This document shows positions 53,593 through 61,194 of a stretch of 64,000 nt of DNA, one piece after another (positions within the stretch are counted from its first letter, which is position 1; every line of letters starts with the position of its first letter). Below the pieces are notes generated by a model that was not told the origin of the DNA, did not search any database, and worked only from the letters and a program-made list of their open reading frames with translations. The position numbers and the translations under genes were made by a program. The DNA lies in contig JABWAT010000001.1 of assembly GCA_013360915.1 (NCBI GenBank), positions 656,981 through 720,980 of the forward strand. The letters run 5' to 3'. The stretch comes from Bacteroidota bacterium. GTDB taxonomy: Bacteria; Bacteroidota; JABWAT01.

Positions 53593-55152
53593 TTATTTCA
53601 GCCGATCCACCCATGCATCGGGAATGTCGGCTTTCAGTTCTTCAAGACCTGCCAGCGCCTTCGCCCTCGAGGTGAACTGACCTAACCGGACACGGAACAC
53701 CTGTTTTCCGTTCACGTCAGCCGCCTGAACAATGCCCTCATATCCTTTAGCCTTCCATTGACCCAGTAATTTATCGGCAGCTGCCTGGGTTGGGAACGAT
53801 CCGATGTTAATCGAAAAACCTCCCTTTGCCGGATCGATTGGTGATTGGAAACCCGCGTGTGTGGCTGTTGTTCCGGCAGGTTCTGCAGCGGGTTTTTTCG
53901 GAGCAGGTTTCTCAGCAGGGGCCTGAGCCGTCTTGGTGGCTGGTGCAGGTTCCTTTGGTTTTGTCTCCTTAACCGGCTGGCTTGAAGGCTTTTTCGTTTC
54001 CTGCGCAGGAGCCGGCTTGGTTGTTACGGGTTCTGCCGGTGTTTTTGCAGCTGGTTTTACAGGTTCAGTTTTTGTTGTCTGATCCTTGACATGCGCTGTA
54101 TTTACAGGAGCCGTTGCCAGGTCCTGAGAGGTAACAGGAGGGGTGACCTTGGCCGGTTGAGTGGCAGTAACCGAATCACTGGCTGATTTCAGATATTCTT
54201 CTTTCTTGGCGGTATCACCACTCATGAAATACCAGATGGCGGCCACCAATATGAGAATCCCAAGTGCGATGAGCCCCCAAAGCTTTTTATGATCCATTTC
54301 GCTTCCGAGCTCGGTCGGACTCAGAACATACTCGGTTGGATCAATTTTTTTGTTGCCTTCTGCAGTTGCTGCAGGAGGAGCCTGGAAGGCCTTTGGTGCC
54401 GCAGGCTCAGGTGTTGAAACCGGTTCCGAAGCCTGGAATCCCGGAGGACGAATCGGACCTCCGGTATCGGCTGCCGGTATGGAAGCCGGTGCAGGAACTT
54501 CCTGATGCACCAGAGACGGAGCCGGGGGCTCGGGCAAAGATGCAGGCTCTGGTTCCTGAGCCATGAACGGTTCAGGTGACAGAGAAGGCTCCGGTTCTGG
54601 AATAACAGCAGAGGGCAGCGGTTCAGCAAGGTCGCTTTCCTGAACGGCTGGTTCATCCCACGTAACCGGTTCCGGTTCTGAAAGTTCAGGTACCGATTCC
54701 TCTGCAAACCCGATGGTTTCGGGTTCTTCGGCAACAGGTAGCGGTACTGGCTCTGAAACAGGTTCAGCAACCGGTTCCGCCATGGGTTCCTCTGCAGGCA
54801 CTTCAGTAAACGGGCTCTCAGAATCATCAAAAGAGATTTCTTCGGAAACCTCAGCAGCACTTTCGGCTGAATCGGCTGTTACAGCATAGGTTTCCAGACT
54901 TTCATCGATGGGAACCGGCTGTATGGTTTCGTATTTATAGTTAACCAGGCGGGCAAAGTCTGAATTCACTTCAAAAGAGAGTTTGCCATATTCCGACTGT
55001 ACAAACGTTCCGAGTTCACCAAAATCAACCGGTGTTCCGGCCTGTACCTTTTCCAGGATCAGGGTGATCAGGGAATCAAGAACAACGGCGATGTCATTCG
55101 GATTTTTTTTGGTGTCAACCTGGAGTTGTTCAAAAAGTTTCTGGGCGTCCAT
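53593..55152 (-). CDS. HU-like / transmembrane / SPOR protein
   Basis: 519 residues in four parts. Residues 1-85 form an HU-like (HU-CCDC81 type) domain with VDFGELGTFVQSEYG. Residues about 90-270 are a Pro/Glu/Ser/Ala-rich linker. A single membrane helix (LWGLIALGILILVAAIW, about 290-308) is followed by a Lys/Pro/Ala-rich spacer. A SPOR domain closes the protein (about 444-519, FSINIGSF...FRVRLGQF). The topology would put the HU part in the cytoplasm and the SPOR part on peptidoglycan, with denuded glycans of the septum as the usual SPOR target. AAGGA precedes the ATG. A small HU gene lies 14 nt upstream. Confidence 0.88.
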   Translation of the reverse strand: MDAQKLFEQLQVDTKKNPNDIAVVLDSLITLILEKVQAGTPVDFGELGTFVQSEYGKLSFEVNSDFARLVNYKYETIQPVPIDESLETYAVTADSAESAAEVSEEISFDDSESPFTEVPAEEPMAEPVAEPVSEPVPLPVAEEPETIGFAEESVPELSEPEPVTWDEPAVQESDLAEPLPSAVIPEPEPSLSPEPFMAQEPEPASLPEPPAPSLVHQEVPAPASIPAADTGGPIRPPGFQASEPVSTPEPAAPKAFQAPPAATAEGNKKIDPTEYVLSPTELGSEMDHKKLWGLIALGILILVAAIWYFMSGDTAKKEEYLKSASDSVTATQPAKVTPPVTSQDLATAPVNTAHVKDQTTKTEPVKPAAKTPAEPVTTKPAPAQETKKPSSQPVKETKPKEPAPATKTAQAPAEKPAPKKPAAEPAGTTATHAGFQSPIDPAKGGFSINIGSFPTQAAADKLLGQWKAKGYEGIVQAADVNGKQVFRVRLGQFTSRAKALAGLEELKADIPDAWVDRLK

Positions 55153-55166
55153 CCGTGGTTATCCTT

Positions 55167-55418
55167 TCATCCTGCGGGAGTGAATTCAAGTGTATCCTTG
55201 GGTGGAAACATGACCAGCTTTCCGGTCTCGGGATCCAATTCCTTCAGACTGGCCAGGTGATGGACATGAAACGTACCCAAACCAGGCAGTTCGACAGGTT
55301 CACGATTGAGAATGGCCGTTTTTATTATCGCACTGAATGCGTTCAGGATGGGTTCAATTTCGGTATCGGACAGGTTGGTCCGTATCGAAATTTCCTGAAC
55401 CAGAGTTTTCTGAAACAT
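55167..55418 (-). CDS. Small HU/IHF-like DNA-binding protein
   Basis: 83 residues, close to HU length (about 90). It has the HU pattern: an N-terminal helical pair, then the core LPGLGTFHVHHLASLKELDPETGK, then a closing segment ending in LEFTPAG. The DNA-binding arm lies between LASL and the closing segment and is less basic than in standard HU (MFPPKDTLEF). It may pair with the HU-like head of the next gene rather than act as a general nucleoid protein. AAGGA stands 7 nt before the ATG. Confidence 0.83.
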   Translation of the reverse strand: MFQKTLVQEISIRTNLSDTEIEPILNAFSAIIKTAILNREPVELPGLGTFHVHHLASLKELDPETGKLVMFPPKDTLEFTPAG

Positions 55419-55428
55419 GGGTGGTTCC

Positions 55429-56946
55429 TTAAAATTGATACCGGAATCCGGCTGTAATCTGAAAAGGCTCCAAACTTAAACCGGGGACTGATTTTTCGTC
55501 TTCAGCTATTATAATCCTAAATTCTGCAAATAAATTCAATGGTTTCAGCCGTAAATCATTGGTTTTTAAGGAAATTTCGGTCAGGTCACCTGTTTTTTTC
55601 CGGTTTCGGGTATCCGTGGCCCGTGCAGTGTGATATCGGGCACTCAGACCGACTCGGGTTTCACCATCCGCTGAAAGCCAGGTGCCCGCCAGCAAGAGCT
55701 GTCTCATGCCTTCCCATGGTACCGACCGGACCGGACCAATGGGAGCCAGCAGGGTAAGGCCAGGAGTGATGCGGATCTGTCCGGAATACTGATACAACCA
55801 TTCCAACGTCCCCGAATAACTCTTCAAGGGAAGAACCTGAAGAGTCAGTTGATCCGACACAAATACCTGTGGTCTTTCAGATCCTGTACCAATCAGGCGC
55901 AACAGGGACCGGGGGCCCGTGATCCACTCTGCCGTGAATCGTATCTGATTTCTGATCAGGGATGAACCGGTTGAATCCGGACCGGGCAGATACCACCACC
56001 GGCTTTGATGGATCAGACGGGAGGGATCCGATACTGACTGTGACTGCCAGAACAGGGTGGTATGCCATTGCCGTCCATGCCAGCCAGCCTCGGCACGGCT
56101 GATCCAGCCAGCCTCACGGTCCTTATTCCAGACCACTCCGCCACTAAGCCCCAGATTCGTTTGTTCCCCTCTCCACTCCGGTCCGGTGAGAACGGAAAAA
56201 ACAGAACCTGTTTTACCTCGCGGATGGTCAACCACCAGGTCGGCCGTGGAATTCCACCAGCCAATAGACAGATCTTTTTTCCATTCAGCCAGACTTCTGA
56301 TCTGACCCGGAACCTGAAAGTTGCCTGTTGTGGATAACTGAGAAAGCCCCAACATGAGCTGAATCCGGTCCCCGGCGGAACGCGGATCTGAAAATACCGA
56401 AACCTGGGCCTCTGTCCATTCGGACTGGTTGGGTGACAATCCGGATTTCCCAGGCTTGATTTCACGGTTGGACCAGCCGGCGGTTCCTACCCAGAACCAA
56501 TCGGAAGACCGGCTCATCAGTCCGGTTTGCGAGTTCCCGACTACCAGCGACCCCTGCTGCCCGTGAAAGGTTGTTTCCTTTTCTGTTTCAACGCCCGCCC
56601 CGGCATGAATATCCAGATGAATATCTCCATAAGGCATGGAAATCCCCGCCAGTGTCCTCCATCCTCCCTGAAAGGACCCGGCCACCCCTGCATAAGCCTC
56701 ACCGGGTGGAGCAAAAGGAGCAAACAGGGCAGGAACCTGATCGGAAGGACCGTAGACTTCCATGGCCGGACTGAAAAAACCCTCCGGCTGAAAATTCATG
56801 GTAAATGCCTGGTGCTCGCGCAGTTTAAGCGTGGGACTGGGAATCTCGGGCGCCTTGAACAGCCGGACACTGTCAGCAGGTGACTGTGCCAGAATCGGTG
56901 TGGCTGCCACAAGCAGCAACAATACAACAAGCAGATTACCTGACAA
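55429..56946 (-). CDS. Outer-membrane beta-barrel protein, function unknown
   Basis: 505 residues with a signal peptide ending TPILAQ. The mature part is rich in Trp, Gly, Tyr and alternating hydrophobic residues (for example WFWVGTAGWSN and RLIHQSRWWYL) and ends in FRYQF, with the C-terminal Phe common to outer-membrane barrels. No plug, TonB box or family signature was seen. The start is a TTG; GGGAGG lies 9 nt upstream, within the end of the TPR gene, with an 11-nt overlap. It is followed 10 nt later by the HU gene. Confidence 0.75.
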   Translation of the reverse strand: MSGNLLVVLLLLVAATPILAQSPADSVRLFKAPEIPSPTLKLREHQAFTMNFQPEGFFSPAMEVYGPSDQVPALFAPFAPPGEAYAGVAGSFQGGWRTLAGISMPYGDIHLDIHAGAGVETEKETTFHGQQGSLVVGNSQTGLMSRSSDWFWVGTAGWSNREIKPGKSGLSPNQSEWTEAQVSVFSDPRSAGDRIQLMLGLSQLSTTGNFQVPGQIRSLAEWKKDLSIGWWNSTADLVVDHPRGKTGSVFSVLTGPEWRGEQTNLGLSGGVVWNKDREAGWISRAEAGWHGRQWHTTLFWQSQSVSDPSRLIHQSRWWYLPGPDSTGSSLIRNQIRFTAEWITGPRSLLRLIGTGSERPQVFVSDQLTLQVLPLKSYSGTLEWLYQYSGQIRITPGLTLLAPIGPVRSVPWEGMRQLLLAGTWLSADGETRVGLSARYHTARATDTRNRKKTGDLTEISLKTNDLRLKPLNLFAEFRIIIAEDEKSVPGLSLEPFQITAGFRYQF

Positions 56947-59701
56947 GTTTACGTGCCTCCCTGACGGCTTCTGAACCCGGATGATCCCGGCTGTATGATT
57001 GGATGTAACGGGTCGCCGCTCTCTTCTTTTTCTCCCTTACCATGGCTTTTACCGTTTCCAGAAAAACCAGATCCACCAGAGGCTGATCGCGTGGCCAGGC
57101 TTCCAGCAGACGCTTCCCTTCCGTTTCGACGCCGGCCAGTTTCAGGGTGGCAGCCCGGCGTTTGAACAATTCACTGTCCAGTTCTCTGGTAACCGATCCC
57201 GGAAGCTGATCCCTCACCTGATCATAGAAGTGTTCGAACGTGGCTGGTTCCTTCCGGTCGAAATAATGACGCGCCAGGTCGGCCAGCAGGTTTTCTTTCT
57301 GATTCGCAATGGCCGGCCAGGAAGCCGACTCGGTCTGCCAGAATTCCCAGAAGGACCAATCCCCTTTCAGTCTGGCTGCGGCAGCCAGACGCTGATAAAA
57401 ATCAAATCGTTCAGACTCATGCCTGAATGGTTCGGAAAGCAGCCATCTCAGACCGGTGGTATCCAATCCTGCCAGCGAGGCAGGATCGATCACCTGTCTG
57501 ATCTGAATCAGATCGGAGGGAAAGACCATACGGTTGTCGGCTGCGTAGGACCACACAGGCCAGTTGCCAATCATGAATAACCTGAAAACCACCGGAAAAC
57601 GCAGGTCAGATTGATCATTATTCAGTCCGAGTTGTTCCCATAATGTCACGTCAAATCCATACTGTGTACGCATCTGATCGAGCAGTATACGCCAGTTTTC
57701 CGCCTGGTCAGCACCAATCCAGACTTGATTATCACCCGCCGATCCGGGCGGGATTTCGTTAAAAAAGGTCATCCAGGCTGTCATCTGGGGACCAAACATC
57801 CGGAAGAGATAGCCGGCCTGAGGGGACCGGAGCACTGCACTGATTGAATCGGCAGGCCAATGGGATCGGGCTGTGGCCAGTGAATAGGCCACAGAAGGCC
57901 AGCTGGTCAGCCTGATCAGGCTGGTGGTAAACCGATTCACTGTCAATTCTCCCCTGAGCGCCGAAATCCGGGTTTCCATCGGGACCAGCCAGTTATCACC
58001 CCGCATACCGAAACGTGCCCGGTAATCCCTGATCTGCTCAGGAATAAAGGCCATCGACCGGCTTTGCCAGGAAGCCTGAATCTGCAGCAAGGCTACCAGG
58101 TCGGGGAAGTAATCTGGCGCGAAGCGTTCAAGAACCCGAAGGGAACCGAGTGCGAGGTCGGGCCGGTTTGCTTTCAGGGTAATCATGGCAGACCGGAACA
58201 GAATACGGTTTCTGACCGAATCGGATCGGGAATACCGCAGCTTTTTCTGCATCAATTCCAAGCCGTCGGTTTCCCTGCCCAGTTGAAACAGGTTTTCCAC
58301 GCGGATCAGATCAATATCATCATAATAATCGGGATACCGGTCCCTCAGACGCAGAATCCGCTGTTCAACAGTATCCGGATCGTTTGTTTCTATCCGGCAA
58401 AAAAGTGAGTAAAGAAAGGCATCCTTTTCGAGGTGGTGTCCTCTGAATCGCAGAACAAAGTCGGTGAACCAGGCATCAGCGGTATAAAAATCACGATGGG
58501 CCCAGGAAGCAAAAGCCGCATTGAACAATAATTCGGGCCACCCTTTCCGTTGCAGGGAAACCGACAGGTCGGCTGCCTGCTGATAGGCCACCGATGCTTT
58601 TTCATATTCGCCCGTTTCCATGTACACCTGACCAAGCAAGGCATAGAGTGAATCGACCGGCAGGTTCAGAGAAGGTTCCTGCGTTACCAGAGCCAGATCC
58701 TTGCCGAAGGCAGGCCAGTTTCCCTGTTTCATCGACGCCCATAAGCGGTTGCTCAGGTTGTATCTCGACACATCGGGCAGATACCGGATGAGCGGTAACC
58801 TGGCCGAACTGATCTGACCAATCTGACCTGCCGATTTCCAGACTTCAACTTCCAGAACACGGCGGTATGGGTACAACCACGATTTTGTTCCGATCTCGGA
58901 TGCTTTTCTCAATGCCTGTGGTTTCTGATTATCCATCCAAAGGCACCATGCAAGCCGGTAACGGATGTAGTCAATCTGCCAGTTCTGAGGATAGGCGTTT
59001 TCAAACTGACCAAAGGCAATAATTGCCTCTTTCCAGTTCTCCATTCGGGCATAGGATTCCGCAATCAGTAAGCGGGATTTTTCCAGGTATCCGGGTTCAC
59101 TGATCACCGGAAGAATCAGTTGCAGCAGATCCACGGTCTTTTCATACTGTCCGGTCTGGAAATAGCAATCGGCAGTGGCAGCAAGGGAATAGGTGTAATA
59201 CTCCGATTGCGGATACTTTTCTGAAAAGGCCGTAAAGTTTTTTCCAGCTTCTACCCAATTACCCAACCGGGTCAGTAGCCAGGCGTGAAGGAGTTCACCA
59301 TGTATTTGTTCCGGAAAAGCGGTGGCACTTTTCAGACTGATCGTCAGACATTCCAGTGCTTTAGCCGGATCGTCATAATCTGCATACAATCTGGCCAGCC
59401 AATAAAAACTTCTGGACCGGATGGGTTCATTTGCCAGGGTGGTCAGTTCGGTGAGTAACGGTTCTGCTTCCTTTAACCGGTTTTGCTGCAAACGCAGGCC
59501 GGCCAGTGTCCATAGCCATTCAGACCGGTCGGGATGAACCGGATAGGTTTGCAGTTGAATACGCAGTGCTTCTTCCGATTCCACCCACCTTCCGTTGGAT
59601 TGGAGCACCGGCAGGGGTACACCGGAAGGTTGAGAAAAAACCGGGGACCAGCACGCGATGATCAGGCCGATCATCTGCAGGAACCGGCCCGTTTTCACCA
59701 T
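56936..59701 (-). CDS. Long exported TPR protein
   Basis: 921 residues with a signal peptide (about 1-23, ending SPVFSQP). Almost the whole length is helical repeats of TPR type. The clearest are in residues 50-260 (LKEAEPLLTELTTLANEP, PAKALECLTISLK, YEKTVDLLQLILP) and near 350-450. The C-terminal third is less regular. It is probably periplasmic. The outer-membrane barrel gene overlaps its end by 11 nt and the isoprenoid-kinase-like gene overlaps its start by 7 nt, so these products are made together. No specific function can be given. Confidence 0.85.
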   Translation of the reverse strand: MVKTGRFLQMIGLIIACWSPVFSQPSGVPLPVLQSNGRWVESEEALRIQLQTYPVHPDRSEWLWTLAGLRLQQNRLKEAEPLLTELTTLANEPIRSRSFYWLARLYADYDDPAKALECLTISLKSATAFPEQIHGELLHAWLLTRLGNWVEAGKNFTAFSEKYPQSEYYTYSLAATADCYFQTGQYEKTVDLLQLILPVISEPGYLEKSRLLIAESYARMENWKEAIIAFGQFENAYPQNWQIDYIRYRLAWCLWMDNQKPQALRKASEIGTKSWLYPYRRVLEVEVWKSAGQIGQISSARLPLIRYLPDVSRYNLSNRLWASMKQGNWPAFGKDLALVTQEPSLNLPVDSLYALLGQVYMETGEYEKASVAYQQAADLSVSLQRKGWPELLFNAAFASWAHRDFYTADAWFTDFVLRFRGHHLEKDAFLYSLFCRIETNDPDTVEQRILRLRDRYPDYYDDIDLIRVENLFQLGRETDGLELMQKKLRYSRSDSVRNRILFRSAMITLKANRPDLALGSLRVLERFAPDYFPDLVALLQIQASWQSRSMAFIPEQIRDYRARFGMRGDNWLVPMETRISALRGELTVNRFTTSLIRLTSWPSVAYSLATARSHWPADSISAVLRSPQAGYLFRMFGPQMTAWMTFFNEIPPGSAGDNQVWIGADQAENWRILLDQMRTQYGFDVTLWEQLGLNNDQSDLRFPVVFRLFMIGNWPVWSYAADNRMVFPSDLIQIRQVIDPASLAGLDTTGLRWLLSEPFRHESERFDFYQRLAAAARLKGDWSFWEFWQTESASWPAIANQKENLLADLARHYFDRKEPATFEHFYDQVRDQLPGSVTRELDSELFKRRAATLKLAGVETEGKRLLEAWPRDQPLVDLVFLETVKAMVREKKKRAATRYIQSYSRDHPGSEAVREARKLVR

Positions 59702-61194
59702 GGTCGGATAAACAGGTTATAAGCCAGGATAGCCAGAACTGAAACAATGGACACGCTCAGAAGATTCACATGGTCGTTGTTCAGCCAATGAATCCCCCGG
59801 GTCACCCGTGATGGGGCATTGCAGTGTTGATCTGCTTCGGTTTCTGATCCGCAAATGGTGCAGGAAAAGACAGCCTGATACCGGGATCCCAGAATGCTGT
59901 CGACGAGTGTGCCTGAAAAACCAGTGATCAGAATCAGAAAAAACAGCATCACCGGTGTTTCAAAGTAAAAATCGGTTTGCCAGAAAATCAGTCCGGCAAT
60001 AACAGCCGATCCTGCTGCTCCTCCGGCAAGTCCGGCCAGGGTCACGCCGCCGCTCTGACCGGCGGGCACCGGCTGACGGGTCAGAATATCCAGAGGCCGG
60101 TTCCGGGAAAACCATCGGCCGGTTTCGGTGCTCCAGGTATCGGCCGTTGCTGCTGCAATGGCTGCCAGATACACCACATAAATCCAGGGCCACAGGTTAT
60201 AATTGGCAAGGAAAAACAGAAGAAGCGGTATACCGCCGTTGGCCCAGACCTGAAACTGATCACGGGCACCCGATTTGACCGAAGGATCATTCTGATCTTC
60301 CTGTCTGAACCGGTGCGAGGCCAGGCTGAGAAGACTTGATAAAAGGAAAAAGACCAGCATGGGCAATACCCATCCCCATCCGCCAATTCCAAGCAGGAAA
60401 AATCCCATCAGAATCATGGCCACTGCGCCATCGGCCGTCAGGAACCGGAGCAGAACGGACAGCACACCGGCCACCACCATCAGTCCGAGGACCATCCACA
60501 GCCAGATCACCAGTTGCGGTTCCTGCATCAGGGTATCCAGCAGAAACGCCGTTCCGAGCGGAACAAAAATATTATCCAGACCCTGAGACAGTATCATTTC
60601 TGCCAGAGAGGCAATAAAGGCGACGAGAAGCGCGATCGGAAACAAATCAAAATAGGTCAATCCGGGAAACAATCCGGCAAAGCCGCAAAGCAGTAAAGCC
60701 AGATATCCCATGACCATCATGGTGATCATGCCTTCCAGGGTCTTGTTCCGGTTCAGAGTAAACCAGGATCTGATTTTTCCCATGGACTGACCTACCAGGG
60801 TAGCCAGTGGATCCGAGGCAGTAAATGCAAGAATCGCTGCCTGAAACACAGCCGGATTGGAATTGAAGTAAAACCAGATCAGGAACCCCGAAATGACAGG
60901 CAGATAGACCGGACCAAGTCCGCGTCGTCCATCAAACCAATCAGATCGCCGGAACCATTTCAGTCCGGCCAGATTGATCAGAGCAATAACCAGACAAAGT
61001 ATCACCACCGGAATGCGGTGGGTAAAAAAGATGGGAACAAAAAAGACGAAGACACCGGCCAGGAAGTAGTTAAAAGCTCCGGCAAATACCGGATTGAACC
61101 GGAAGAACCGGTTTAGCAGTATTTCCAATCCGGTCAGAATCAGATAGACAGCCAGGGCTATACCAGCCCACAGCCAGTCAGAGGTCAGAATCAC
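59695..61194 (-). CDS. Fusion of VTE5-like polyprenol kinase and VTE6/DUF92-like domain
   Basis: 499 residues, a highly hydrophobic inner-membrane protein with about 12 membrane segments. Residues 1-230 match the dolichol/phytol kinase (SEC59/VTE5) family: DPLATLVGQSMGK (128-140), NKTLEG (150-155) and QGLDNIFVPLG (205-214). A charged linker (293-313) separates them from a DUF92/TMEM19 half: NGGIP (319-323), ATADTWSTETG (349-359), SGGVTLAG (381-388), GTLVDSILGS (428-437) and LNNDHVNLLS (471-480). A CxxC...HC set (445-458) may bind zinc. In plants VTE5 phosphorylates phytol and VTE6 the monophosphate. A single protein could thus make a polyprenyl diphosphate from the free alcohol. The start is a GTG with a poor ribosome site; the TPR gene overlaps its end by 7 nt. 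Confidence 0.85.
   Translation of the reverse strand: MILTSDWLWAGIALAVYLILTGLEILLNRFFRFNPVFAGAFNYFLAGVFVFFVPIFFTHRIPVVILCLVIALINLAGLKWFRRSDWFDGRRGLGPVYLPVISGFLIWFYFNSNPAVFQAAILAFTASDPLATLVGQSMGKIRSWFTLNRNKTLEGMITMMVMGYLALLLCGFAGLFPGLTYFDLFPIALLVAFIASLAEMILSQGLDNIFVPLGTAFLLDTLMQEPQLVIWLWMVLGLMVVAGVLSVLLRFLTADGAVAMILMGFFLLGIGGWGWVLPMLVFFLLSSLLSLASHRFRQEDQNDPSVKSGARDQFQVWANGGIPLLLFFLANYNLWPWIYVVYLAAIAAATADTWSTETGRWFSRNRPLDILTRQPVPAGQSGGVTLAGLAGGAAGSAVIAGLIFWQTDFYFETPVMLFFLILITGFSGTLVDSILGSRYQAVFSCTICGSETEADQHCNAPSRVTRGIHWLNNDHVNLLSVSIVSVLAILAYNLFIRPW

Follow-up and report, generated by a model that had tools for sequence, protein, structure and literature searches.

A widespread family of bacterial proteins, in which a cytidine triphosphate (CTP)-dependent prenol kinase module of the SEC59/VTE5 type appears to be fused to a prenyl-phosphate kinase module of the DUF92/VTE6 type, has in the Bacteroidota genome studied here a member with a partly altered first module. 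Its gene lies at positions 59695–61194 of the window, a stretch of 64,000 nucleotides (assembly GCA_013360915.1, contig JABWAT010000001.1, positions 656,981–720,980), on the minus strand, as do its parts and the TPR gene given below. It encodes 499 amino acids (aa), with a GTG start and the stop codon at 59695–59697, exactly as placed by a first-pass annotation made from the sequence alone, and full-length homologs exist. Judged by the plant enzymes, most members of the family would phosphorylate a prenyl alcohol, such as farnesol, geranylgeraniol or phytol, twice, first giving the monophosphate and then the diphosphate. For the window protein we favour, with a probability of about 0.5, a fused prenol-salvage enzyme with a DUF92 half that is still working and a first half that is inactive or altered. 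The DUF92 half, with all its invariant residues, would be the working part. In the first half, the fold, the Asp and the K-T-x-E-G loop are retained; this half is probably inactive or changed in specificity because an Arg-Lys-His clamp is lost. The monophosphate would then likely come from another enzyme, for instance from a stand-alone kinase encoded next to ftsH.

The second half (residues 229–499; 59698–60510) is of the DUF92/VTE6 kind, as the first-pass annotation had it. It matches Pfam DUF92 (PF01940) over residues 239–484 with an E value of 4.7e-58 and 196.9 bits, compared to a gathering cut-off of 27.5, and contains the DUF92 motifs ADTWxTExG, the GGV loop, DSxxG and NND. As reference set for residue conservation we collected 97 distinct fused proteins; relatives were gathered by a contig search with an alignment as query, a single-protein query having given no match. 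In the core motif ADTWSTETG (residues 351–359, including D352; 60118–60144), the residues A, D, T, T, E and G are identical in all 97, as are D432, S433, G436 and Q440 (59875–59901). N473 and N477 are invariant within NDHVN (residues 473–477; 59764–59778), and a glycine loop, GQSGGVTLAG from G379 to G388 (60031–60060), precedes helix 6. Every family-invariant residue is retained in the DUF92 half of the window protein. Homology to the phytyl-phosphate kinase family VTE6/COG1836/DUF92 is clear, the difference being the extra N-terminal kinase-type half. COG1836/DUF92 was tied to phytol-phosphate metabolism by bacterial comparative genomics in 2011 (PMC3223725), and VTE6 is the plant phytyl-phosphate kinase, which also accepts geranylgeranyl phosphate (PMC9782597; PMC13415981); in the literature searched we found no assay of the present DUF92 branch. 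A CxxC-x8-HC pattern, possibly a metal-binding loop, is seen at residues 445–458 (59821–59862) within DUF92; a CxxC..HC pattern occurs in 66 of the 97 fused proteins and is missing in Chlorobi.

Pfam and NCBIfam recognise no family in the first half (residues 1–228; 60511–61194). With Pfam CTP_transf_1 (PF01148) the window protein gives no match and the first halves of its relatives stay under the cut-off. Its identity was therefore tested with profiles built in this analysis. In hhalign, the family profile of the first half reached 99.7% (E 2e-25, score 169) with the stand-alone SEC59/VTE5-like kinases of the same genomes, compared to 96.5% (E 8e-10, score 71) with CdsA, and the controls, reversed or unrelated membrane families, scored 12–29. 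Since the profile is far nearer to the stand-alone kinases than to CdsA and the controls are low, the first half is by sequence profile of the SEC59/VTE5 kind, within the wider CTP_transf_1 superfamily; the kinases compared were stand-alone ones of the same genomes. It bears out the VTE5/dolichol kinase-like half of the first-pass annotation, which had considered that CdsA or another family might be found there instead. CdsA, the CDP-diacylglycerol synthase (PF01148; PDB 4Q2E, 4Q2G), belongs to the same superfamily and differs in substrate and chemistry; as identity of the first half it is ruled out by the far closer kinases. All motifs quoted in that annotation are there: DPLATLVGQ (128–136), NKTLEG (150–155), ATADTW (349–354), GGVT (382–385), LVDSILG (430–436) and LNND (472–475).

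The signatures of VTE5 phytol kinase, FOLK farnesol kinase, PfPolK and SEC59/DOLK, namely R-K-x-x-H, D-x-x-A-x-x-x-G, K-[ST]-x-E-G and E-x5-G-x-D-N-x3-P, are common to the fused family, which differs from these enzymes by the attached DUF92. Within the 97 fused proteins they take the form R-[KQR]-x-x-H, D-x-x-A-x-x-x-G, K-[ST]-x-x-G-S and E-x5-G-x-D-N-x3-P, with each position conserved at about 90–99%; the E of K-[ST]-x-E-G is retained in just 46 of 97. The window protein has kept the catalytic Asp motif DPLATLVG (residues 128–135; 60790–60813), the nucleotide-binding motif NKTLEG (residues 150–155; 60730–60747) and the stretch from E199 to P212 (60559–60600), and with them D128, K151, G155, E199 and D207-N208. 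It lacks the charged clamp, in which it differs from the named kinases as well; this loss had escaped the first-pass annotation. At residues 39–43 (61066–61080) it reads G-A-F-N-Y, with G39, A40 and Y43 in place of R39, K40 and H43, where R39 is kept in 92 and H43 in 90 of the 97 fused proteins; D128 is kept in 92 and K151 in 96. No other protein among the 97 lacks R39 and H43 yet has Asp128 and Lys151 (one, L107, is incomplete at the site). A local frameshift or sequencing error is ruled out, as no other reading frame supplies RKxxH there. In PfPolK, a prenol kinase of Plasmodium that has been shown to phosphorylate farnesol and geranylgeraniol, the corresponding Arg29-Lys30-His33 were modelled as a charged clamp which orients the phosphates and touches the alcohol via water (PMC10849223).

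Alterations of the first half are not confined to the window protein. Two family-mates (L004, L005) have lost both Asp128 and His43, a third (L003) has both, and in two Melioribacteraceae proteins (L025, L103) and one of the Ignavibacteriales (L076) most or several of the first-half signatures are gone. In other Ignavibacteria relatives DUF92 occurs without a first half, and for L109 and L110 the surrounding genes are of the same kind as here. Parsimony on a quick tree of the DUF92 half, with some long branches, requires at least three changes between the intact and the degraded state. The fused DUF92 proteins of Chlorobium, Ignavibacteria, Marinimicrobia, KSB1 and Calditrichota have the same architecture and length as the window protein and differ from it in that nearly all possess an intact first half. 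The genome of one family-mate (G003) encodes a second protein (L134:784-2166) in which the first half is intact and the membrane region behind it shows no detectable DUF92 similarity; in view of this C-terminal region we do not claim it as a mirror-image paralog with a live first half and a dead DUF92.

Both halves may go back to one and the same fold. The AlphaFold model of the full-length protein (predicted local distance difference test, pLDDT, 86; predicted template modelling score, pTM, 0.85) shows eight long helices per half; eight helices are also found in the model of PfPolK. Signature residues stand at matching places: the fifth-helix Asp (D128 and D352), the loop before the sixth helix (K151–G155 with its lysine and the glycine-rich G379–G383), an acidic residue in the seventh helix (E199 and D432) and an Asn-Asp pair opening the eighth (D207-N208 and N473-D474). 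Because the two halves show the same eight-helix layout with these residues at matching places, one CdsA-like fold has probably been duplicated in tandem, and the two modules of the family would have arisen in this way. A profile comparison of the N-terminal with the C-terminal half gave the same register as the helix layout, with scores of 27–40 in six disjoint splits, compared to 22–28 for reversed and 8–23 for unrelated membrane families, a modest excess over the controls. Sequence searches of the PDB with each half separately gave nothing meaningful and no related solved structure for DUF92. When the DUF92 half alone was searched with Foldseek, four CdsA chains ranked first among about 350,000 PDB chains, so that CdsA (4Q2E, 4Q2G) is its best, though weak, fold match; the full model gave weak matches only, CdsA among them. 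A fold common to both halves is thus likely, though not proven, and from the matching layout a fold and possible active-site residues can be proposed for DUF92. Taken one step further, we tentatively picture a duplicated-fold two-step salvage enzyme whose first active site was dismantled in place in at least three lineages and whose second one stayed intact; DUF92 would be the indispensable part, fed in trans, and the window protein a stage at which only the clamp is lost.

The fusion is common in this bacterial group and not exceptional. In an even sample of 198 genomes of the window's phylum, 121 have DUF92; with open-frame length as a proxy, about 77 of these have room for the fusion and 44 have a stand-alone DUF92. 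Named records of Chlorobium, Ignavibacteria, Marinimicrobia, KSB1 and Calditrichota contain the fusion as well, and among 14 control genomes those of Synechococcus and three archaea have DUF92. We detected no relative of the first half, that is, no VTE5-like kinase, in three of the genomes with DUF92 (G046, G025, G041). Because DUF92 is separate in 44 of 121 genomes, sometimes without a detectable VTE5-like kinase, the two halves are not obligately coupled. The idea of two kinases working in series, put forward in the first-pass annotation, fits the family-wide fusion. The genome of the window itself has CdsA and one other gene of the first type, for a 206-aa stand-alone SEC59/VTE5-like kinase with intact motifs beside ftsH (G000:C9, L113:1492-2109:-), which gave no match to plasmids in tblastn. 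This kinase is a possible supplier of the monophosphate.

Several points weigh against our favoured reading. Most relatives have stand-alone kinases of this kind, even where the fusion is intact, and the one next to ftsH is therefore no specific replacement for the first half. The clamp role derives from a docking model and not from mutagenesis (PMC10849223). The first half of the window protein may still be active, as Asp128 and K-T-x-E-G remain. It also does not diverge faster than the second half: the ratio of N-terminal to C-terminal distance is 1.03–1.11 in the window's family, compared to a mean of 1.25 in intact members and 2.26 in L025. Since this ratio is not raised, general decay is not supported and the first half is still under constraint. 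With respect to the duplication, one hhalign control, in which the DUF92 profile was aligned with its reversed form, reached 36, as high as the comparison between the halves, and DUF92 matches the structure of CdsA weakly, with a template modelling (TM) score of about 0.34. The absence of unusually fast evolution in the first half, the retention of D128, K151, G155, E199 and D207-N208 and the persistence of the fusion in about 77 of 121 DUF92 genomes would also suit a fully bifunctional enzyme with replaceable clamp residues, which phosphorylates the free prenol twice to give the diphosphate. Such a two-step conversion was the model of the first-pass annotation, of which the two kinase types on one polypeptide stand. 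We consider full bifunctionality unlikely here, given that the clamp is lost, that in two of three family-mates the catalytic Asp is lost too, and that some Melioribacteraceae have a degraded first half and stand-alone DUF92 proteins have none. Constraint and fold, maintained despite the changes in catalytic or clamp residues, could also point to a first half that is a pseudo-kinase and serves to bind prenyl groups or as a scaffold, so as to feed or regulate the DUF92 half; the confident full-length model is in line with this. The separate DUF92 genes elsewhere, however, suggest that the first half is dispensable, and we regard this explanation as rather improbable.

The gene context hints at the cell envelope without settling the substrate. 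The fused gene heads a run (53593–59701) with genes for a 921-aa TPR protein (56936–59701, sharing 7 bases with the end of the fused gene), a 505-aa protein without Pfam match and an HU-like and SPOR protein. The order of fused gene, TPR, about 500-aa protein and HU/SPOR is common to Ignavibacteria, where ExbB follows, although the homology of the neighbours is weak (TPR 2e-11, HU/SPOR 5e-8, none detectable for the 505-aa protein). In Chlorobi, TolQ/ExbB, TolR/ExbD and TonB are located directly downstream of the fused gene, with TolB- and OmpA-like genes nearby. A role in envelope lipid-carrier metabolism, such as the recycling of polyprenol or undecaprenol, instead of quinone or pigment side chains would agree with these neighbours. 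We nevertheless regard it as very unlikely: elsewhere the neighbours differ, with enolase in KSB1 and still others in Marinimicrobia, so that the link may be inherited gene order, and the substrates known for VTE6 are prenyl phosphates of the C20 class (PMC13415981).

By analogy, the fused architecture fits the VTE5–VTE6 pathway. What would be added to this pathway by the reading favoured here, a working DUF92 half behind an altered first half, is the probable internal duplication and the repeated loss in place of first-half active-site residues. Bacterial VTE5–VTE6 fusions have reportedly been remarked upon already around the discovery of VTE6; our literature search, which did not cover the VTE6 discovery paper, found no paper naming such a fusion. 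Only a small number of prenol and prenyl-phosphate kinases are known, and naturally intact and altered first halves offer matched proteins for assigning the steps to the halves. A review from 2022 treats both kinds of kinase for plants and cyanobacteria only (PMC9782597).

Possible consumers of the product are encoded in the window's genome by five genes of the UbiA family of prenyltransferases, which would use prenyl diphosphates. They include an MqnP-like (menaquinone) and a heme O synthase-like protein; none of the five reaches the cut-off for chlorophyll synthase, in agreement with the absence of visible photosynthesis genes noted before. A further one (L177:1501-2166) resembles geranylgeranylglycerol-phosphate geranylgeranyltransferase and is of interest with regard to archaeal-type lipids in bacteria.

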